DNA from: Mesostigma viride
Taxonomy: Eukaryota; Streptophyta; Mesostigmatophyceae; Mesostigmatales; Mesostigmataceae
Length of the DNA: 64,000 nt
NCBI GenBank assembly: GCA_009746045.1
Contig: RPFO01000644.1
Location: 1,095,680-1,159,679 of the forward strand
Direction: 5' to 3'
Positions 12,682 to 24,340 of the stretch are shown piece after piece. The stretch's first letter is position 1, and every line of letters starts with the position of its first letter. The translations under genes and the position numbers were made by a program. The notes beneath the pieces were generated by a model. It made no database searches, was not told the DNA's origin, and saw nothing but the letters and a program-made list of their open reading frames with translations.

Positions 12682-12807
12682 ATCCATCCATCCATCCATC
12701 CATCCATCCATCCATCCATCCATCCATCCATCCATCCATCCATCCATCCATCCATCCATCCATCCATCCATCCATCCATCCATCCATCCATCCATCCATC
12801 CATCCAT
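12682..12807 (+). repeat. (CATC)n microsatellite, left flank of the YR retrotransposon
   Basis: About 31 uninterrupted CATC units run directly into the B2 repeat of the YR element (…ATCCATTTCTGG). The same tetranucleotide flanks the other end of the element, so the element lies inside one original array. Confidence 0.95.
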
Positions 12808-12998
12808 TTCTGGCCTTGCCTTGCTTTGCATGCATCACCACAAAACATCAAATTTATTACAATATGTGTGCTAGCTCTATACGGTGGAATAACACAGACA
12901 TGTCTACCAGATGGCAACACGGCCATCTGTATGCTAGGGTGAGCACACTATGTGAATGTGCAGGGCCAGCCCACAGCAGCTGTGCCCCTGCTCTACCC
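12804..12998 (-). repeat. B2 direct repeat of the YR retrotransposon
   Basis: A 195 bp direct repeat of 13232-13426. Starts CCATTTCTGGCCTTG next to the microsatellite and ends at GCTCTACCC. Confidence 0.9.
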
Positions 12999-13022: not shown

Positions 13023-13236
13023 AGGCAAAAGAAACAACCTGCTTCCCTAGAATGGAAGCCCACCCTTTATAGCAACCACCTCTCCAGCCAACCCCTACCT
13101 GGGTGGCTGGGGTACGGGTGCCAGCACAAAAAATATTTTTTCTAAAATTATTTTTTCTTTTGGTGCTATACGGCGTTGCATTCTCCGCTCAGCAGGTTAG
13201 TCATAGATAAAATGAGCATAGCTCACCAAATCCATT
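13023..13236 (-). repeat. A2 direct repeat of the YR retrotransposon
   Basis: Direct repeat of 17920-18137 with only a 4 bp indel, one T-run length change and a few substitutions. It overlaps B1 by the short core ATCCAT, the A/B junction expected of the circular intermediate. Confidence 0.9.
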
Positions 13237-13426
13237 TCTGGCCTTGCCTTGCTTTGCATGCATCACCACAAAACATCAAATTTATTACAATATGTGTGCT
13301 AGCTCTATACGGTGGAATAACACAGACATGTCTACCAGATGGCAACACGGCCATCTGTATGCTAGGGTGAGCACACTATGTGAATGTGCAGGGCCAGCCC
13401 ACAGCAGCTGTGCCCCTGCTCTACCC
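13232..13426 (-). repeat. B1 direct repeat of the YR retrotransposon
   Basis: Near-identical to B2 at a constant offset of 428 bp, adjoining A2. Confidence 0.9.
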
Positions 13427-13493
13427 ACATCTCCTTACATGGCTAACAGCCGAAAATACGTAGGACATGCAAAAAAGAAAACTTAAACTACCT

Positions 13494-13592
13494 AGCTATG
13501 GGGGTACTTTGTCCCAACCCAGGTTCACCCTCGGGTTAGTTAAACCATTTCCCCCCTGACCTCCCACACAAGGGTGAGGTCAGTTGATAGCT
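13494..13592 (-). ncRNA. Covarying three-way-junction RNA fold in the 3' region of the YR element
   Basis: In transcript sense: P1 AGCTAT/ATAGCT closes the fold. A hairpin CTGACCTC/GAGGTCAG (P3) with a 12-base loop comes next. A GGGGG/CCCCC stem (P4) then encloses hairpin P2, AACCC-g-AGG / CCT-GGGTT, capped by GTGAA. A relative lies three times at 20746-21439. Differences in the stems are all compensated: two pairs in P1, one in P2, two in P3. It is placed between the stop of the RT ORF (13622) and B1. It matches no hammerhead, HDV-like or tRNA consensus I can apply by eye. Function unknown. Confidence 0.65.
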
Positions 13593-13621
13593 AAAAGACG
13601 AGAGGTAAAAACAGGAGGACG

Positions 13622-16552
13622 TCAAAACTCGACGCCACCGAAGTGGCGCCGGAAAGCCGCTGGGTCAAAACCCAGGGCCTGAGCCCAGAGGGCGGGTGGG
13701 ATGTCGCGCCCCAGGAGGCTGCGGTGGAGGCCAATGTAGCGCGTGACCGAGAGGGCCGAAGCCCACCGGCCGCGCAGCTGGATGGCCTCCGGCGACTCGC
13801 CAGCGATGGCGTCGTGCGTCGCCCCCCCATGCCGGAGGCTGTGAAAAGAAAACATCCCTGGGATGCCCATGCGGGCCTGCACAGCCTCCCACTGCTGCCT
13901 AGCCTGGCTGTACGTTAAGCCTCGAAAGAGGAGTGCATCCGGGGGCTGGCCAGCCGTCAGACGTCGCAGGAGCCACAAAGAAAGTGGATCCCGGACGAGG
14001 ACGTGCTGGGCCGCCCCCTGCGCAGTTTTGGGGTTGCGCAGCACAAGGGCACCGACCATGGGCCCTGGCTCGAGAAGGGGGTGGCCGGGATGAGCCACAT
14101 CCCGAACCCGCAGCCCTAGCGCCTCGCTAATGCGTAAATACTGCTGGAAAGCAATAATAATCAACGCACTCAAATGCACCTGTCGACGTGAAACTAGCAA
14201 CAGGGCAGTGAAATAGCAAAGGCGCCAGGGCATAGGCGGAGGGCTGACAGCCGGAACAAGCCGCTGCCAACCTGCTAGCAGGCGGTCCGCCAGTACCCAA
14301 TTCCGAACAATGTCGGGGTAGTACAGGTGCAGACAGGCCTTGGCATGCTGGCATAAGGTACGCCCCCGCCCGCCTCTGGCATGGTAGACAGCAGAAATCC
14401 ACTCACAGAAAATGGCTTCGGCGTCAGCTGGGTCGACAGGGCCAGGTGGCGCCCACGCCACGTAGACAGCCGCCGCACGCCGGTACGCTGGCAAGGTAGA
14501 CACAGGGTTGACTGTGCCCTCCAAAAGTGCCAAGTCCCGAGGGCGTCGCGCCCCCTCAGGCCCAGGGTTGGGATGCACGTCACCACACCGGGTCAAGTCA
14601 GGAACCCAAGCGCCACGCCGACTGGCCTTGTCAGCTGGGTTGTGGTCGGTAGCCACCCAGACCCAGTGGCTCTGCATGTCGCCAGCCAGTGACAGAGCGC
14701 AGTAGCGCCGAACCAGCTGGTTGAGACGGTAGGAAGACGACCGCCCTCTGACAAACGCCCCCACCACAGCACTGGAGTCTACGAGCCGGACGACTCGCTT
14801 ACCCCGACACGCCTTGGTCCGGCACGACCACTCGACCCCCTGTGTCGCAGCAATCGCCTCCTTGACGTTGATGTGGTTAGGCTGCCCCCGCCACCGGTAG
14901 GACAGTGCCGTACGCCAGTGGCCACTATCCAGCAGGCTGTAGTCCCCCTCCTCCATGCGCTCCAGGTCCCAGTCCTCCCCAGACGTTAAAGCTGTCGTCC
15001 GCCACCCCCGCGCTTCGCGCCGGGTCGCCAGCCGGGCACAATCGGCCCCAGGCAGGTCCCTGTAGACCACCCCACCGCCGGAGCCGCTCGCATCACTTGC
15101 GACGACCCGGTCAGAAAGGGGCCGGGCCCTGGCCGCCCTCAAAAAGGGGGCCAGGTCGATCGCCGCCTGAAGCTCCTGGCGGGCCCCCGCAGGGAGGCGC
15201 CAGCGGCGCCCAGGCAGGGAGGCATTCATGGCTGCTAGCAGCCGGTACGTCTCAGACCACACCGAAAGCATGGGGCGGCACAGCAGATGCATCCACACCC
15301 ACTTCCCAAGCACAGAACTAAGTTCGCGGTAGTATGTAAACCCGCGATCTAAGATTCTATGAGTAGCGGCGATAACTGCCACCACACGCTCAGGAACAGG
15401 CACCACGTCACCATCCCTTTGGTGAATGACCCCCACCGCCTGCACACCAGTCTGCTCTGCTGTCGCCCGTACCACCTTGTCAGACTTCTGCACCAGCCCA
15501 ACAGCGGCGTAGGCAGCCTGAACACGATCTAGCTGCTGATTCACCCCATCCACCGACGCACAGTGGGTGAAATGGAGGTCATCGATCGTCACAGCATGCA
15601 TACCTTCCAGATCCTGCCGAGATTCGAAGCACGGCGAGGGCGCCAAGGGCGCAGCAGGGTCCTCCTCCAGCCTCAGCCGGACGGTCTCCCCCGCCTCGTT
15701 GGCCTCCGCCACCAGGATCAGCGCGGACATGTTGATGCTCAGCCCACGACTAGCCTCCAACGGCGGCTTGGGGCCACAGCGGTACAACACAGACTGATGC
15801 ACACACTGGGCCACCGCGACGGCCAGCTTGTTGCCCATTGGCCAGCACAACATCCACGGCCACACCTTCCGACGAGCCCCACTCAGGCCCACCAGATCCG
15901 ACCACACCGGCATCCACGCACAGTACCGCCGCATCCAAACTGGCAGGCGGAGTCTGTTGTAGTACGAATCCAAATCTGATACGCCCCCAAAAACATCCTC
16001 CCCAGCGCGCGTGGGCAAATCGCAAATCACGCCAAGGTGTGGTAAAAAAGCGGGCATAGGATCTGGTAGTGGCATGTTGCCACGCCGGTTGTCCACAATC
16101 AGCCGTATACGGCCGTCGGGCTTTCCGACCCCAAAAGTACCGTTCACCATAGGCGGCTCCTCCTCAAAAAATCCACCCAAAATCCCCCTCTCCACACACA
16201 CCGTGCAAACCCGCGCGAACTCCTCCATGCTACACCCCCGCGAGATCCGCATCGACTTCTGCAAGATCCGCTCTGCTGGGCTCAGCGTCCGTACCATCCT
16301 ACTCTCATCATTCAAAATTGCTCCCCAAGAGGGGGGTAGTAAGTTCAGCACATCCACTTGGCCACCTTCCCCCGGACCAGGCAAAGCCAAGCGTGCGGCC
16401 ACTAACGGTTCGTAAGGGGCTCCTTCAGCATATTCACCCCCATCCACTACAGATCCTGCCATTGCCGCTACGGAACCACCGTTCCGGCGGACAAAGGACC
16501 TGCAAGCATCATCGATCCCATCTAGGGCCGCCTGCTGCAGAGGCCCGGGCAC
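13622..16552 (-). CDS. RT, RNase H and tyrosine recombinase polyprotein of the YR element
   Basis: A 976-codon frame. RT: IRLIVDNRRGN, then SDLDSYYNRLRLP with catalytic Asp193, and TIDDLHF with Asp324-Asp325. RNase H: SDASGSGGG (Asp487), NVKEAIAA (Glu), LVDSSAV and DHNPADKAS (636 on). A 2A-like GDVHPNPGP follows at 657-665. Tyrosine recombinase: RISEALGLRVRDV with Arg807, HSLRHGGATH with His904 and Arg907, GRW (930) and Tyr939 in TRYIG. All catalytic residues that can be judged are present and the frame is uninterrupted, so this copy may be active. Met at 16552 is the first in frame, roughly 200 bp after the likely Gag end; a different start is possible. Confidence 0.9.
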   Translation of the reverse strand: MPGPLQQAALDGIDDACRSFVRRNGGSVAAMAGSVVDGGEYAEGAPYEPLVAARLALPGPGEGGQVDVLNLLPPSWGAILNDESRMVRTLSPAERILQKSMRISRGCSMEEFARVCTVCVERGILGGFFEEEPPMVNGTFGVGKPDGRIRLIVDNRRGNMPLPDPMPAFLPHLGVICDLPTRAGEDVFGGVSDLDSYYNRLRLPVWMRRYCAWMPVWSDLVGLSGARRKVWPWMLCWPMGNKLAVAVAQCVHQSVLYRCGPKPPLEASRGLSINMSALILVAEANEAGETVRLRLEEDPAAPLAPSPCFESRQDLEGMHAVTIDDLHFTHCASVDGVNQQLDRVQAAYAAVGLVQKSDKVVRATAEQTGVQAVGVIHQRDGDVVPVPERVVAVIAATHRILDRGFTYYRELSSVLGKWVWMHLLCRPMLSVWSETYRLLAAMNASLPGRRWRLPAGARQELQAAIDLAPFLRAARARPLSDRVVASDASGSGGGVVYRDLPGADCARLATRREARGWRTTALTSGEDWDLERMEEGDYSLLDSGHWRTALSYRWRGQPNHINVKEAIAATQGVEWSCRTKACRGKRVVRLVDSSAVVGAFVRGRSSSYRLNQLVRRYCALSLAGDMQSHWVWVATDHNPADKASRRGAWVPDLTRCGDVHPNPGPEGARRPRDLALLEGTVNPVSTLPAYRRAAAVYVAWAPPGPVDPADAEAIFCEWISAVYHARGGRGRTLCQHAKACLHLYYPDIVRNWVLADRLLAGWQRLVPAVSPPPMPWRLCYFTALLLVSRRQVHLSALIIIAFQQYLRISEALGLRVRDVAHPGHPLLEPGPMVGALVLRNPKTAQGAAQHVLVRDPLSLWLLRRLTAGQPPDALLFRGLTYSQARQQWEAVQARMGIPGMFSFHSLRHGGATHDAIAGESPEAIQLRGRWASALSVTRYIGLHRSLLGRDIPPALWAQALGFDPAAFRRHFGGVEF

Positions 16553-16828
16553 ACGGGCTGAATCTACAGCAGGCGGGTCTCGCCCCCCCCCCCCATCCAG
16601 TTTAACGCCCTAACCGTCTGACAGGCTAGTGTGCGAGCATTAAAAGCCCGACTCATCCTATCGCGCCTACGGCCTGAGCGTACCTGCTGCCACCAGTCAC
16701 GAGGTGGCAGGGGTGCTGGAAGAGGTAGTGGAAGAAGGCACCGCTCCCTCACTTGTTGTTGTTGGACGGGCCGCCCTGCCCCTTCTTGCCGGGACCCTGC
16801 TCCAGCTTGTGCTGCAGCTTCCCCATGC

Positions 16829-17851
16829 TCATCGCCGCCCGCACCGCCGGAGACGCCAGCATTGCTCCACCCTCCTGGAATGGCAGCATTGCCGACGGCG
16901 TCCCCTTCCACCCGTCGACCCCACATCCACCAGCTGGCATGCCGTGATCAGCTTTGCCAGGTACTCGGCTGCTGCCAGCTCCAGAATTACTTCGGAGCGT
17001 GGCGTGGCCCAGTAGCCAAATTCTGTCACCATCGTGTCCAGAATTCCTGCCATCTGCAGGAGCAGCATCCGCCTCTCCCCGCTGGCTGAGCTGCCGTGCA
17101 TCGTCAGCATTAACGATGCACGGATGGACTTCCCCCCCACGCTCTCCGCGTAGTCCAGCATTCCCGGCAGCACCGCCTCCAGCATGTTGCTCACCAGCAC
17201 CGGCACTGCATGCCCACTCAGCGCCACCCCCTTCGTGCGCGCCAGCCTGCCAGCAGTCGTCGCTGCGGCTGGGCTTGCAGCTGCTGGAGTCTTTGCCTGG
17301 TCCAGCAGCTTCGACATGGCCGATATTAGGTCGCCAATATCTCCGCCAGTGCGGGCGTTGCCCGGCCGGGATGGAAGCCCTCCAGCTGGCGTTGCATAGC
17401 CCGTCTCGGTCCCCAGCAGCCGACCTAGGTTTCGGTCCAGGTCCGCCACAGCCTGGTCGATCGCCCCAGGAGCGCCATCGTCCTCCCCAGCGCCCGCTCC
17501 ACCATGCCCCGCCCCTCCGCTTCCACCTGCCGAAGGGGGAACACCCCCCGTTCCCACCGCACCTGCTGACACTGGTGGGTCCGGCTCTGCAATAGCCTCC
17601 CCCAGTTGCGCTGCTAGCACATCGGCCAGGGCCTCCTCCCCATCCCAGTCGCTGACAAACCCCCTTTCCTCCAGGACGTCCATGACGTTCTTGGCACGCC
17701 CCGGAGTGAGCTTCTGGATCCGCTCTAGCCAGTTCCCCTCCCCTAGGATCTTCTGGACCGCAGTGGCGGCCTCCTTTGGGGTGCATCCCTCCTTGGCTGC
17801 TTGCTTGAGTTTCGCTAGGAAATTCCGGTCTGGGGCTGTCACTGTGGTCAT
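16829..17851 (-). CDS. Gag-like ORF1 of the YR element, probably frameshifted near its end
   Basis: A 340-codon frame starts MTTVTAPDRNFLAKLKQA, just inside A1. The N-terminal part looks helical, the middle is Gly/Ala-rich, and a long helical region follows; no zinc knuckle is seen. After QLVDVG the frame turns into an Arg/Cys-rich tail ending at 16829. The overlapping frame from there instead gives a Met/Gln/Lys-rich stretch ending GKKGQGGPSNNNK at 16749, a more natural terminus. A one-base change in the G-rich run near 16895-16925, or programmed shifting there, would connect them. Role as Gag is inferred from position. Confidence 0.65.
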   Translation of the reverse strand: MTTVTAPDRNFLAKLKQAAKEGCTPKEAATAVQKILGEGNWLERIQKLTPGRAKNVMDVLEERGFVSDWDGEEALADVLAAQLGEAIAEPDPPVSAGAVGTGGVPPSAGGSGGAGHGGAGAGEDDGAPGAIDQAVADLDRNLGRLLGTETGYATPAGGLPSRPGNARTGGDIGDLISAMSKLLDQAKTPAAASPAAATTAGRLARTKGVALSGHAVPVLVSNMLEAVLPGMLDYAESVGGKSIRASLMLTMHGSSASGERRMLLLQMAGILDTMVTEFGYWATPRSEVILELAAAEYLAKLITACQLVDVGSTGGRGRRRQCCHSRRVEQCWRLRRCGRR

Positions 17852-17919
17852 GGTAGGTTATACTGCTTGATGTCTTATCTTGCGTTTTGTTTTTTGTGTT
17901 GTGGTCGCGTGAGGTTCTC

Positions 17920-18137
17920 AGGCAAAAGAAACAACCTGCTTCCCTAGAATGGAAGCCCACCGACCTTTTATAGCAACCACCTCTCCAGCCAACCCCTACC
18001 TGGGTGGCTGGGGTACGGGTGCCAGCACAAAAAATATTTTTTTCTAAAATTATTTTTTCTTTTGGTGCTATACGGCGTTGCATTCTCCGCTCATCAGGTT
18101 AGTCATAGATAAAATTAGCATAGCTCACCAAATCCAT
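17920..18137 (-). repeat. A1 direct repeat (5' end) of the YR retrotransposon
   Basis: Transcript-sense 5' terminus, repeated as A2. On the plus strand it ends CACCAAATCCAT and passes without a gap into (CATC)n. Confidence 0.9.
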
Positions 18138-18939
18138 CCATCCATCCATCCATCCATCCATCCATCCATCCATCCATCCATCCATCCATCCATCCATCCA
18201 TCCATCCATCCATCCATCCATCCATCCATCCATCCATCCATCCATCCATCCATCCATCCATCCATCCATCCATCCATCCATCCATCCATCCATCCATCCA
18301 TCCATCCATCCATCCATCCATCCATCCATCCATCCATCCATCCATCCATCCATCCATGGATCCATCCATGGATCCATCCATGGATCCATCCATGGATCCA
18401 TCCATGGATCCATCCATGGATCCATCCATGGATCCATCCATGGATCCATCCATGGATCCATCCATATCCATCCATGGATCCATCCATGGATCCATCCATG
18501 GATCCATCCATGGATCCATCCATGGATCCATCCATGGATCCATCCATGGATCCATCCATGGATCCATCCATCCATCCATCCATCCATCCATCCATCCATC
18601 CATCCATCCATCCATCCATCCATCCATCCATCCATCCATCCATCCATCCATCCATCCATCCATCCATCCATCCATCCATCCATCCATCCATCCATCCATC
18701 CATCCATCCATCCATCCATCCATCCATCCATCCATCCATCCATCCATCCATCCATCCATCCATCCATCCATCCATCCATCCATCCATCCATCCATCCATC
18801 CATCCATCCATCCATCCATCCATCCATCCATCCATCCATCCATCCATCCATCCATCCATCCATCCATCCATCCATCCATCCATCCATCCATCCATCCATC
18901 CATCCATCCATCCATCCATCCATCCATCCATCCATCCAT
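18132..18939 (+). repeat. Giant (CATC)n array with a 12-mer palindromic sub-block
   Basis: About 0.8 kb of CATC. From about 18353 to 18567 it turns into a 12 bp higher-order repeat, ATCCATCCATGG, with alternating CCATGG and GGATCC palindromes, broken once by CCATATCC near 18463. The pure tetranucleotide resumes to 18939. All frames are open on both strands (Pro-Ser-Ile-His and Met-Asp-Gly-Trp repeats), which is a repeat artefact and not a gene. Confidence 0.95.
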
Positions 18940-19329
18940 GCTCCGTGACTCCCCAACGGGAGCACGAGTCTACTTAATTAATTAATGCCGATGGCGAGGC
19001 CGCAGGAGCCGAGTGCACTATTCTGATCGAGTGCACTATGTACCAACGCTTGAGTAGTGGCCTCGCTGCCTGGCAGGCCGGGCAGAACTGCAGCTGGAGC
19101 TGCAGGCGAATTTTCTTGGCTCATCGTAGCCGCCAGGCTGCGTTGCGTAGTCGAGCGTTTGCTCGTCATGATATCGCGTTTTAGTTTCGGAAAAATATGT
19201 TAGCGTGTGCGTCTTAGAAAGACGAAGCGATCACGGCCGCATTTGGTGCCCAAACGTGAAAGTTATGAGCTCCGCCGTCAGCCATGGCTACCTCGTGGCT
19301 CGTGGCTTGGGGGGCTACGTGATACGTGG
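18940..19329. other. No gene recognised
   Basis: A TTAATTAATTAAT run lies near 18974. A 63-codon minus frame (18978-19169) has no family resemblance. Possibly the far part of the piggyBac-like fragment that follows, too diverged to align by eye. Confidence 0.3.
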
Positions 19330-19624
19330 CATGGTCCTAGCCGCCATGGCCAGGTCGTCGTTTTCCGGAATGCACGTTTCACCTGAAAAAGGACCCTTAC
19401 CCCTTGTACTTTTTACCGACCAGAACACCCCTCTAACGTTGTCAGAAGTATGCAAACACTAGTATCATGCTGACAGTGAGGAAAATTATAAACTTTCGAT
19501 CTTTTCATCTTAACTTTTCCAAATTCTCAATAGTTTTCGCGGCATTTGGTACCCCGAGAAGGGGCTTATGAATCGACTATAACTCGATTATTGGTGGAAA
19601 ATCGGCAGCCAGACCATTTAGGGG
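19330..19624 (-). mobile_element. Partial piggyBac-like element (left end)
   Basis: Reverse complement of about 55482-55770 with scattered differences. It has the same TTAACCCCTAAATGGTCTGG terminus in opposite orientation and TTAA at 19625-19628. Similarity fades below about 19330, so the copy is truncated or strongly diverged. Confidence 0.55.
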
Positions 19625-19628
19625 TTAA

Positions 19629-20745
19629 ACAACTGACATCGTGGGGTATTAGCGGTAGCCCGATCGTCACCTCCCATCCGCAGGGGTGAAAAAGAAGATT
19701 GTTTGTCAGCACAGGTCTGCGTTAGTATAGGTGGTTGTGTCCCAGGGCTACTCATACCACCATGGGTCGCGAATGTCTATCTACTGTGATCTGGTGAACG
19801 TCCTAGACTCAAGGTTGGCAAAGAGCTCCGACGGTCACATAAGGAGGCGTCGTCTCTCTATTTAGCCCGGAGTGCAGGACGGTTACCAGACCCTCTCTGG
19901 TGACAGACATGTACTCAACGCTCACACAGAAGTTACTAGTTCTCAAGAGAAACACCTCCGGTACCAATGTAACAACTAAAAATGGTGTGCAACCATCCCC
20001 AGTTATCAAACATATCACAGGAATAAAGATTTAAAGATCTTTGTACCTGGGTGGCTCTCTTGACAGTAGGTCTTCTGCCAGAGACGCGTTGAGATGGGTT
20101 ATACAACAGTTGATGGATTGGATACTACCACACCCTTGTCAGACACAACAGACAAGTTGTTTCCACGTCTAGCTATCTGTTGTGGCAATAGAGACGTTGA
20201 GCAAGGGTTGAGAGTTTGATGGAAAAAGGCTTAACCTTTATTACACCATGAGAGTGATCACACGAACGAACGTCTCCAAAGGCGACCCAAACGTTGCTAA
20301 ATGCAGCGTGCATGTCAGTTAGGACAACGCTGGCCAGGCTGGACCAATCATCAATCAGTAATCAGAAGGTATCCAACCCTCCCATCTTAACTTAACAAAC
20401 TTCACAAGACAGCGCATAGGTCAGTCTGGCAAAATCTTTGTAGTGTCACTGAATCTTGGTCAAACACTGAAGTCCTAAAGGCCTATTTAGGACTGACAGA
20501 ACTGGACCATACAGACAACCCCACGTGGATCAGGCCACGACCAATGAGGGCTCTACACAAGAGACTAATATAGTGACCAAGGTCTCAGTACCTCCACCAC
20601 TTCGAAACCTCATAACTTTCTCAATCCTTGTCCAAAAGTCCTCGAACAAAAATCAAACTCTGGCTCAAATCTGGATGTAGCAACTGAATCACTTTTGGTT
20701 GTTACACAGCGACAGGAAGAAAAACAAAACAAAAAAAGAAAGAAA
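19629..20745. other. No gene recognised
   Basis: About 1.1 kb of mixed sequence without long frames, clear repeats or recognisable domains. It ends in an A-rich stretch (20720-20745) just before the tandem array. Confidence 0.4.
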
Positions 20746-20843
20746 GGCCATGGGGGTACTATGTCCCAACCCTGGTTCGCCCACGGGTTAGTTAAGCCAT
20801 TTCCCCCCTGACCCGCCACGCAAGGACGGGTCAGTTGATGGCC
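20746..20843 (-). ncRNA. Three-way-junction RNA fold, array copy 1
   Basis: Transcript-sense stems: GGCCAT/ATGGCC, CTGACCCG/CGGGTCAG, GGGGG/CCCCC, and AACCC-g-TGG/CCA-GGGTT capped by GCGAA. Compare 13494-13592. Confidence 0.6.
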
Positions 20844-21046
20844 ATGAACATGCAGCGATGCGCCTGCATGCCAATGCCAAAGAAGCAAAAAGCAGAGATA
20901 TGCCGGTGTTCTAAACCATTGGGTCCCATCGCATGGGGGTCCCATGCACGCACACAATTTATTCTTGGAGCTCAGTTGCATCAGTGCAAAGAAAGAAACA
21001 GAAACAGGAACAGCGTCCCTGGGGAAAAAAAAGAAAAAAAAAGAAA

Positions 21047-21144
21047 GGCCATGGGGGTACTATGTCCCAACCCTGGTTCGCCCACGGGTTAGTTAAGCCA
21101 TTTCCCCCCTGACCCGCCACGCAAGGACGGGTCAGTTGATGGCC
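21047..21144 (-). ncRNA. Three-way-junction RNA fold, array copy 2
   Basis: No difference from copy 1 was seen within the fold. Confidence 0.6.
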
Positions 21145-21341
21145 ATGAACATGCAGCGGTGCGCCTGCATGCCAAAGAAGCGAAAAGCAGAGATATGCCG
21201 GTGTTATAAACATTGGGTCCCATCGTGTGGGGGTCCCATGCACGCACACAATTTATTCTTGGAGCTCAGTTGCATCAGTGCAAAGAAAGAAACAGAAACA
21301 GGAACAGCGCCCTTTGGGAAAAGAAAAAGAAAAAAAAGAAA

Positions 21342-21439
21342 GGCCATGGGGGTACTATGTCCCAACCCTGGTTCGCCCACGGGTTAGTTAAACCATTTCC
21401 CCCCTGACCCGCCACGCAAGGACGGGTCAGTTGATGGCC
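21342..21439 (-). ncRNA. Three-way-junction RNA fold, array copy 3
   Basis: One unpaired-base difference from copies 1 and 2 (TTAAACC for TTAAGCC), shared with the YR-element version. Confidence 0.6.
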
Positions 21440-21577
21440 ATGAACATGCAGCGGTGCGCCTGCATGCCGCATGAACGATTGGGGACCCCGGCGAAATGCC
21501 AGTGCTAAGGCTGTCGCTGGTCCCAGTGGGTGGTACCATGCACAAGAATCTCTGTTGGTACGCAATGATTCGTTTCC

Positions 21578-21919
21578 CTAGTTCAGCGCTAGACGAAACT
21601 GGTTGTAACGACAGTCAGCCGCGAAAATGCTTGTGGTCTGGTAGTCCTGGGGAGTGCCATCAACTGGAATGTCGCCATCACCGCCTCCAAGCGACTGTCC
21701 CAGGATCCCATGCGCGTGGCTGAGGCCGGTAAACTGCTTGACCTGCAAGTTGAGAAAGTTGTGGCCTGGGCCTGATCCTGGCTGCCAGAACTCCGCTCGG
21801 ACTACCTGCACCTCAACGCCACCCACGTCTGGCACAGTGACCACGACGCGGGTCTTGGAGCGTGCCACGGTGAGCCCGGACGCCAGCTTTATCATCGCAG
21901 TGCGACCGAGGACCAGCTC
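21578..21919 (-). CDS. Last coding exon: end of a root-cap/LEA-like domain
   Basis: Acceptor GTGAGCAG precedes GAGCTGG at 21919; the exon is in phase 0 with the exon ending at 22442. The translation has a beta-rich stretch, then GILGQS, then TTSIFAADCRYNQF before a TAG stop. This matches the end of plant root-cap/LEA-type proteins, where a GVLGQT motif is followed by a Ser-Leu-Phe-x-Ala-Asp-Cys motif. Proteins of this family are usually secreted or cell-wall associated; their biochemical role is not known. Together with the preceding exon it completes the domain. Confidence 0.75.
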   Translation of the reverse strand, partial: ELVLGRTAMIKLASGLTVARSKTRVVVTVPDVGGVEVQVVRAEFWQPGSGPGHNFLNLQVKQFTGLSHAHGILGQSLGGGDGDIPVDGTPQDYQTTSIFAADCRYNQFRLALN

Positions 21920-22441
21920 CTGCTCACACAAGAGTATGTGTTGGTGGGTGTAACGATGCCGCAGACAGGTGTTAGACGGGTAGAAGGCCATGAAAGCAGC
22001 AAGAATTATGGGCCCACACAATACCAAAACATCACATGGACTATAAAACTCACGATAAAGACAGGGAGTTATTTATTGACTGATGTCTGCAGTGGCTATG
22101 ATGGCTCAAACTACTGTGCATGTGACAGTGGTGTAACATGTGACGTACGTGACACGATTGTAACATGATGGGATCGCCGCCCTGCCACAGGGTTAGCCAG
22201 TGCGGGCCTACACAGATCTACATTATGAGTGCCGCGAAGTCCTTACATGCAACCCATGGTAAAAGGTCCTTCAGACTTTAGGAGTCAGAATTAATACGTT
22301 ATACTAAGAGCCACTGGAGAGCCTCGCAGATCCATTACGTCGGGCAACCTATCTGCGCCATGACAACTGTACCGAGCCAGTAAAGCCTTACAACAGAGCG
22401 TCCTGCAGTGAAGAATCCCACGGCATATGCGCGCGACTTAC

Positions 22442-23184
22442 CCCGTTAACACTGACGGTGCCAAACGACAGGGTGTACGGCGTCTTCTGGGGCGATGCCG
22501 CCTCCACCAGCACGCGGTCGCTCCCGTGCAGGATGGCCACCTGGTCCATCCACGTGCGCGTGTCGGGCTTGCCATTTACCTGGTTGGTAGGGGACACCAG
22601 AGCAGCGTCAGGGGTTGCGCCCACGAATCGCGCGTTGATCTGCAGCTGTGTGTCGGTCACGACGCAGTAGGTGCGGCCTGCCTCGCCGTTGAAGTCAAAC
22701 TTGCTCCCACGTGCGGTCACAAAGTGGGGATCTGACGTGGCCGAGCGGGGGCGGACCAGGACCGCCGTGACGTTGACGGAAACCACGTCGCCCACGTCCT
22801 CTTTGATGAGCGCGAGCAGGGTGGCCAGCTTCATGGTGCCATCGAGGTCACTCAGGACAATGTTCCCTTGCACCTCATCCGGCACAAACATGACCAACCC
22901 GAACACGAGGGTGGCGCCTGGCCCCTCTTGCAGCAGTCGCCTCCTGCGATCATCGGAAGATCTGCCCTCGGAAAAGGACTCAAAGGACAGCTCGAGGGCG
23001 CACGCGGACACGTTGATGACAGCGCTCATGGCAGTGGCCATCGCCGTCAGGTTGAGATTGCTGGCGCGACAGCCGGCCATGACCACCTTGATCTGGGCAG
23101 CCACTGCAAAGTCGCTCGTGCAGCTGACATCCTTGTCGGGGACGACGTCGTCCACCTCGAAAATGCACATGGCATTTCGGTACT
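22442..23184 (-). CDS. Large exon with the SDPHF (root-cap/VWD-like) core
   Basis: A 743-nt exon between acceptor CACCGCAG and donor GTAAGTC. It begins EYRNAMCIFEVDD, contains Cys-bearing segments and an RRRRLLQ run common in green-algal extracellular proteins. The domain core then follows: SDPHFVTARGSKFDFNGEAG and RTYCVVTDTQLQINARFVG, the classic start of the root-cap family and similar in layout to VWF type-D modules (GDPHF...FDF.G). It is spliced in phase 0 to the last exon. In the gene as a whole it follows the Cys-rich exons, suggesting an extracellular multidomain protein. Confidence 0.75.
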
Positions 23185-24340
23185 CTGCGGTGACACATAA
23201 CCATGCATGCATGAGGATGTACAGACTTAGGGTGGGGCCACAGATGACCCCAAATGCGTTAGATGTCTGCTAACTGCCATCATGCTGGCTGGCACCTGCC
23301 GCCCATCCATGTGGCTCCGCAACAAACTTGCGGGCATGTCTGTAAGTAAGCTACCTGAATCTGCATGATATGTCTGAATATAGGCGTGCGACTGGGTGTG
23401 CGCGTGCTTATGGTTCTCTTCCATATTCCTTACAACTCGCCATATAGATAGCAACTCCTTTTCTGGTGACCCTCCATGCCACTGTGCCACTGAAGGTGCC
23501 TGATCAGACTCCAAGGCTATGGCCATGTTCTGCAGCTATAGGTAGCCACCATGGATACAGTTTGACAAACCACAAGCTCGGAATGTAATACTAGTATGCA
23601 AATGTATGCTTTCCCACAGATTTTTCTCAATCCCCTACAGCAAGGGAAAGACTTGAGCTAGATCGAGAGACGCAGGAATCCCATTTAGTTTCAGACGGTG
23701 GCAGACCATGTGGCCAGCAGCTATAGCTATTTGAAACACCTGCCCTCTGCCTTGCAAGTCAATAAATAGGCTAAGCAGCGTCAGCAGTGGGAGGTTTGGG
23801 AGAATATGCAAAGAGTTCTCGATCCCATGGAGCCTGAGAAACTCTATGCATGGGCTTACATAAACCTAAGCCTGACCCACAATCCCCAGTGAGGCAGTGG
23901 GATTTGGCAAGTTAACGAGGAGAAAGATTGATTTAAAATATTTGTATACGGCTAGCTCAGCCATGCCTTCCACCAGACCACTGTCCCGTATGCCCAAGAT
24001 ATGCGCACTATCCTGTTTGGTTTGTTTAACGTAGGTGCACTATACATAACAGTGAAAAGTGATAACAGCAAATAAAATTCATCTGAGCAAGAACTGAATA
24101 GTTATTACTAGAATACCAATAGGACTTGTGCCTGCCTTGCCCCTGCCTGGGTGCAATTATTATAGGAACACTGGTTAAAGTGAGCTACCAGGTTAGAACA
24201 TGTCAAATGAAAGACAAACTTGTGCAGGATAGTCCTCCTGCAAAAGATGGTACGCAGAACTTCATCACCCATACAACTCAAGTTTGACAAGGGATTAGGC
24301 AGTGTGGAGTACAGGTAGTCATTTGCACCCTGGCACGCAC
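23185..24340. other. Probable intron; no other feature recognised
   Basis: Lies between the exon at 22442-23184 and the Cys-rich exon at 24341-24451. No long frame or repeat was noticed. A further small exon cannot be excluded, because the Cys exon ends in phase 1. Confidence 0.4.

Follow-up and report, generated by a model that had tools for sequence, protein, structure and literature searches.

A conserved branched RNA module, a candidate cis-acting 3′-UTR element, shared by two classes of retrotransposon and root-cap-like genes in Mesostigma viride

The RNA stability element (RSE) of Rous sarcoma virus lies just 3′ of a stop codon, and an antisense fragment of it gives no protection (PMC5580461). 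Split direct repeats are typical of PAT-type retrotransposons (PMC4157794, PMC3266345), and PAT-like elements occur in all Chlamydomonas species compared (PMC8226300). Here we describe a structured RNA of about 98 nt in the streptophyte alga Mesostigma viride, found in a stretch of 64,000 nucleotides of contig RPFO01000644.1 (the window; all window coordinates refer to it). The module lies behind the last stop codon of an apparently PAT-type tyrosine recombinase (YR) retrotransposon and, in three tandem copies, behind the stop codon of a root-cap-like gene; elsewhere in the genome it is carried by Ty3/gypsy-type elements and by further root-cap-like genes. The covariation described below strongly supports selection for its pairing. 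Tentatively, we propose that it acts in cis in the 3′ untranslated region (3′ UTR), probably by way of a bound protein.

Read 5′ to 3′ on the minus strand, the module consists of a closing stem of 6 bp (P1), the letters CAA, a hairpin (P3), a helix of 5 bp (P4), an asymmetric internal loop (AAAUGGYUUAA / GACAWAGUA) and a final hairpin (P2) with a GYGAA loop. The copy in the YR element (13494..13592, minus strand) has GUGAA in this loop. The array copies lie on the same strand at 21342..21439 (T3, closest to the root-cap-like stop), 21047..21144 (T2) and 20746..20843 (T1). A preliminary description of the window had located these four copies, which we found at the same places, just past the polyprotein stop of the YR element (29 nt after it) and downstream of the root-cap gene stop (138 nt from it to the nearest copy). 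Its compensated pairs in P1, P2 and P3 stand as well, and its fold proved incomplete, for it lacked the fourth helix, P4, which reads GGGGG/CCCCC in the window copies. In a shifted register, P4 adjoins GAA opposite AGUA, which we take to be the letters of the loop-E/sarcin-ricin motif.

Over 97 nt, identity between the YR copy and those of the array is 86.6–87.6%; on both sides the similarity ends at the outer stem, beyond which the flanks align poorly. The ten stem differences between them make up five pairs changed on both sides (two in P1, one in P2 and two in P3) and none is one-sided, as had been claimed. This count places the gap by structure, after the 5′ strand of P3. MAFFT puts it elsewhere at a saving of one substitution. 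The two events in P3 are thus alignment-dependent, although each copy has an unbroken P3 stem. When we placed 14 substitutions at random on the YR copy, no more than four compensated pairs arose in any of 200,000 trials, and 22 of these trials left every one of the 29 pairs unbroken.

Relatives from the same 440-Mb genome extend this comparison, since they retain the fold although their stems diverge widely in sequence. A hand alignment on the fold comprised 12 copies (the set excludes identical copies, loci L007, L009 and L013, and modules c1, c2 and c4 of gene 2, a paralogue of the window gene). In it, 321 of 332 cells pair and 20 of 28 pairs are changed on both sides. None of 2,000 shuffles reached either figure, a count that, like the next, is not a probability, since both alignments lean to structure and the copies are kin. 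An alignment fitted by a covariance model took in 27 matches (20 distinct rows), including all four gene 2 modules; 92.8% of its 554 cells pair and 16 of 28 pairs are double-changed. Its 20 distinct rows score 0.420 for covariation against 0.209 ± 0.013 when shuffled, and none of 500 shuffles reached any of five measures. Sliding the stem partners against each other lowers pairing in these rows to 30–58%. Selection on RNA structure, asserted in the preliminary description from the window alone, is therefore strongly supported by the comparison of relatives. The uncompensated stem changes that it named as evidence to the contrary do occur, in 11 of the 332 cells (five in single YR copies, four in gypsy-type copies and two in host genes) and in 7.2% of the 554, without overturning the result.

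Sequence constraint points the same way. Across 26 YR copies the module shows 17 changes in 2,573 sites, compared with 51 in 750 for the preceding 29 nt and 263 in 15,295 for the end of open reading frame 2 (ORF2), in a set biased by having been picked by its module match. A less biased single comparison comes from the diverged copy L016, which has 66 changes over 579 sites of ORF2 and 3 over 99 sites of the module.

The module RNA is likely the minus strand, the sense strand for both neighbouring genes, because the YR ORF2 and the root-cap-like gene both lie on it; the preliminary description had missed this strand. The fold z-scores are −3.6/−3.7 on this strand and −2.6/−2.3 on the plus strand, and the consensus energy is −83.7 for the sense and −75.0 for the other strand. 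On the sense strand, G.U cells outnumber A.C cells by 29 to 6 in the 12-copy table, or by 17 to 6 without the one pair that is always U.G; of the six A.C cells, three come from a single lineage, at the end of a helix, and the other three from single YR copies. Such an excess, together with conserved unpaired letters, is not expected from pairing of DNA. This bears on a reading in which the feature acts at the DNA level, either as a cruciform or folded single strand for the tyrosine recombinase or through palindrome correction that equalizes the pairs. In its favour, the similarity ends at an inverted repeat and one carrier encodes a tyrosine recombinase. Because the module is also present in gypsy-type elements and in host genes, we regard this reading as very improbable.

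The relatives came from several searches. In the first module query, 40 of 904 candidates were scored and 42 matches listed, so its counts are lower bounds; of the 30 loci extracted, three belong to the window array, one to gene 2 (L005) and the remaining 26 match the YR ORF2. A second query found the gene 2 contig (C557) and the window copies alone. Searching for the pattern gave 29 matches, compared with none for the reversed control. Eight of these are the window array, gene 2 and one YR copy, and the other 21 loci (L048–L068) hold 22 modules that fit the model with E values of 1.6e-10 or better. They comprise one further root-cap-like gene (gene 3) and 20 gypsy-type loci, of which 17 are nearly alike in module and flanks. 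Thus the two carriers noted at the outset, one YR element and one array, are real, and the module is not confined to them. In every carrier with a settled frame it is sense-oriented and lies 3′ of a stop codon. Candidate relatives from other sequence collections (L001 and L075–L081) were discarded as coincidences that do not fit the fold, and two further searches of such collections returned no module relative. Among 4,227 Rfam families, including ribozymes and tRNA-like RNAs, none matched the window at its gathering score, and the best matches to the modules alone were at chance level (E 6 or worse). A known RNA family was accordingly rejected as the module's identity, in keeping with the earlier remark that it resembles no known ribozyme or tRNA consensus. 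Titles and abstract openings of the open-licence papers searched named no such element; one paper that came up concerns plant long intergenic noncoding RNAs. Together, these results point to a fold not previously described.

The YR element spans 18137 (A1) to 12802 (B2) on the minus strand. Behind repeat A1 (17920..18137) follow an upstream frame, ORF1 (16829..17851), without a Pfam match, and ORF2 (13622..16552), which ends in a tyrosine recombinase (PF00589, E 4.7e-07). After 29 nt comes the module, and after a further 67 nt come B1 (13230..13426), A2 (13023..13235) and B2 (12802..12998). The element thus combines the split direct repeats and the tyrosine recombinase by which PAT-type elements are recognized. 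Upstream in ORF2 we read, by eye and from motifs, what we take to be a reverse transcriptase and RNase H. Between the RNase H-like part and the recombinase lies GDVHPNPGP, which is similar to a ribosome-skipping motif of the 2A type. The frame that readthrough of the ORF2 stop would enter closes within the module, and a long readthrough product was therefore rejected. The A2/B1 junction reads AAATCCATTTC, and (ATCC)n arrays border the element on both sides (12682–12807 and 18132–18939), as if it had integrated at ATCC-rich sites.

The second carrier is, by its sequence, a Ty3/gypsy-type retrotransposon with long terminal repeats (LTRs), protease, reverse transcriptase, integrase and chromodomain. 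One copy (L082/L070, on contig C1162) has 585-bp LTRs, and because these are 100% identical, it is recently inserted. Its domain matches are to a protease, RVT_1 (reverse transcriptase), a Tf2-1-like SH3 domain and Chromo, and its integrase core was seen by eye reading alone. This copy has an extra 3′ reading frame; the module sits between the stop of this frame and the 3′ LTR and starts 30 nt after the stop in all three copies measured (L069, L070 and L071). Loci L072 and L073 share stretches of 75–88% identity with this copy, and L049/L073 has two modules about 310 nt apart. The remaining gypsy-type loci were assigned by a near-identical module and flank alone.

Five root-cap-like genes have the module downstream. 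In the window, gene 1 comprises an upstream, VWD-like coding stretch (22388..23212, minus strand; VWD E 0.087, below the cut-off) and a final coding stretch (21578..22027, minus strand; Root_cap E 0.0024, also below the cut-off) with its stop at 21578. The tandem array behind it (20726..21468, minus strand) has a period of about 295 bp and 2.5 copies; between units, the modules differ at 0–1 of 98 positions and the spacers at 13 of 196, with three additional gaps. Gene 2 (on C557; L005, L032) is 59–60% identical to gene 1 in protein and has four sense modules after its stop, one nearly intact, one without P3 and two with damaged stems. Its best module is 90.7% identical to that of gene 1, compared with 70–78% for coding DNA and no match between spacers. 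Gene 3 (L063/L074; Root_cap E 0.0042, below the cut-off) has one module. From stop to module the distance is 138, 253 and 109 nt in genes 1–3; it is about 175 nt in gene 4 and about 307 nt in gene 5.

The family to which these genes belong is large. Scoring covered 150 matches among 176 candidates, and a single gene may account for more than one of these; several matches on different contigs have equal scores. We sampled the 600 nt downstream of 14 of the top 18 ranks, 13 taken by rank and one (C1:395523) chosen in knowledge of a module match nearby; the window gene, gene 2 and two matches with inner stops (C1668 and C2167) were excluded. Two of the 14 have a module (L085, by rank, and L089, chosen), that is, one of the 13 taken by rank. 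We therefore rejected the idea that root-cap-like genes carry the module as a rule, and the family does not need it. A second module match, at C1:394202-394298, lies 889 bp from the module downstream of C1:395523.

Upon comparison with the retrotransposons, these two sampled genes turned out to carry more than the module. L089 is followed by 181 bp of YR 3′ end (96%), starting within the last ORF2 codons, and L085 by 319 bp of gypsy-type 3′ end (92%), extending into LTR sequence; each piece includes the module. Thus, of the five genes that carry the module, two seem to have captured the 3′ end of a retrotransposon, and the longer pieces indicate that such ends have moved between retrotransposons and root-cap-like genes. 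Genes 1 and 2 showed no retrotransposon similarity beyond the module in the searches made; for gene 3 the comparison covered the YR element alone. Three further sampled genes without the module (L088, L091 and L093) match gypsy-type LTR-like DNA, so that with L085 gypsy-type sequence lies behind four of the 14.

The captured ends, and the module's place in both element classes, behind the last stop and ahead of the 3′ repeat (B1 in the YR element, the LTR in gypsy-type elements), would also suit a retroelement cis-signal for packaging, the start of reverse transcription or the choice of 3′ end, which would in addition let host mRNAs be copied and moved. This would explain the many root-cap-like copies, and the family may have been amplified by mobile elements. 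YR and gypsy elements differ in priming and integration, making a common signal for their own machinery unlikely, and most sampled root-cap-like paralogues lack the module. We hold this explanation to be unlikely overall, and a host factor used by both classes seems likelier to us than a packaging signal common to both machineries.

Instead, we favour a cis-acting structured RNA of the 3′ UTR, read in the sense direction and exchanged between retrotransposons and host genes. A host protein would bind its core (P4, the internal loop and P2 with its GNGAA loop) and protect the mRNA or export it, most likely with the effect that transcripts with long 3′ UTRs are shielded from nonsense-mediated decay (NMD), as with the RSE. 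The analogy draws on position, because a place after the stop is common to two retroelement classes and host genes: the module begins 29 and 30 nt after the stop in the retrotransposons and 109–253 nt after it in genes 1–3. We put the probability of a cis-acting 3′-UTR element, probably one that binds a protein and serves mRNA stability, NMD protection or export, at roughly 0.35. The triple-helix ENEs (expression and nuclear retention elements) of transposon RNAs are also 3′-end stability elements; they need U-rich internal loops, and the module's loop has the mixed letters given above.

Several observations weigh against this proposal. By structure conservation index the sense strand has no advantage (1.71, compared with 1.83 for the other strand), and in T1 folded together with 300 nt of flank on either side, P1 and P3 reach probabilities of 0.29 and 0.36 only. 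Three of the four gene 2 modules are damaged, and the module is rare among the sampled paralogues. In a carmovirus, moreover, unstructured RNA behind the stop codon makes transcripts resistant to NMD, as does a readthrough structure (PMC6277124).

Plant-virus 3′ cap-independent enhancers include branched ones, and the branched fold might therefore serve translation in this way, or 3′-end processing as an aid to the poly(A) site. UGUAA is the major poly(A) signal in Chlamydomonas reinhardtii (PMC4025486), and in the YR element and genes 1–3 the first TGTAA comes after the module; in the window this possible signal lies beyond the module after the ORF2 stop (13435..13439, minus strand) and beyond the array after the root-cap-like stop (20702..20706, minus strand). 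The distance from module to TGTAA varies, reaching at least 1.5 kb in gene 3, and a role in translation or processing appears doubtful to us, to the same degree as the retroelement signal above.

A branched fold that is compact and covaries, keeps certain unpaired letters and has no Rfam match could also be a new class of small self-cleaving ribozyme, spread over two retrotransposon classes and host 3′ UTRs and occurring in tandem arrays and retroelements as in retrozymes (PMC4918200). Cleavage would sever the mRNAs and cut the YR template off its 3′ repeats, and four YR copies broken 12–25 nt past the module show no single site; we consider a ribozyme improbable, more so than either of the two preceding roles. 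These breaks were dropped as a sign of cleavage, as two of the four are at TTAA and look like later insertions. The two copies concerned, L009 and L011, break at TTAA just past the module and continue with GGGG or CCCC, which we take to suggest later insertion of a transposon that targets TTAA.

That two unrelated retrotransposon classes and several host genes carry the module at a similar place behind a stop codon suggests that independent retroelements use one host RNA-handling pathway by means of one portable element, in a genome in which 3′ ends move between transposons and genes. The module offers a small and specific system in which to ask how retroelement messages with long 3′ UTRs persist in the host.

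Set beside the systems described so far, its YR carrier resembles PAT-type (Toc/Kangaroo) elements in its A1-B1A2-B2 repeats and in a tyrosine recombinase encoded in the direction of ORF2, and the excerpts of PMC4157794 make no mention of a structured 3′-UTR RNA for such elements. As a difference, no methyltransferase domain was seen in ORF2, for which Pfam gave PF00589 only and no search aimed at methyltransferases was made. Like retrozymes and hammerhead retroelements, the module is a small RNA fold of retroelements that also occurs in tandem; the hammerheads there lie in LTRs and cleave (PMC4918200), whereas the module lies between the stop and the LTR or B1 and has no hammerhead match in Rfam. 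The RSE of Rous sarcoma virus, by contrast, is 400 nt long (155 nt at minimum) and follows gag; the two are likened by position and not by sequence or fold. Rather, what the module has in common with the RSE is that it is a cis RNA of retroelements, sense-oriented and closely 3′ of a stop codon (PMC5580461).

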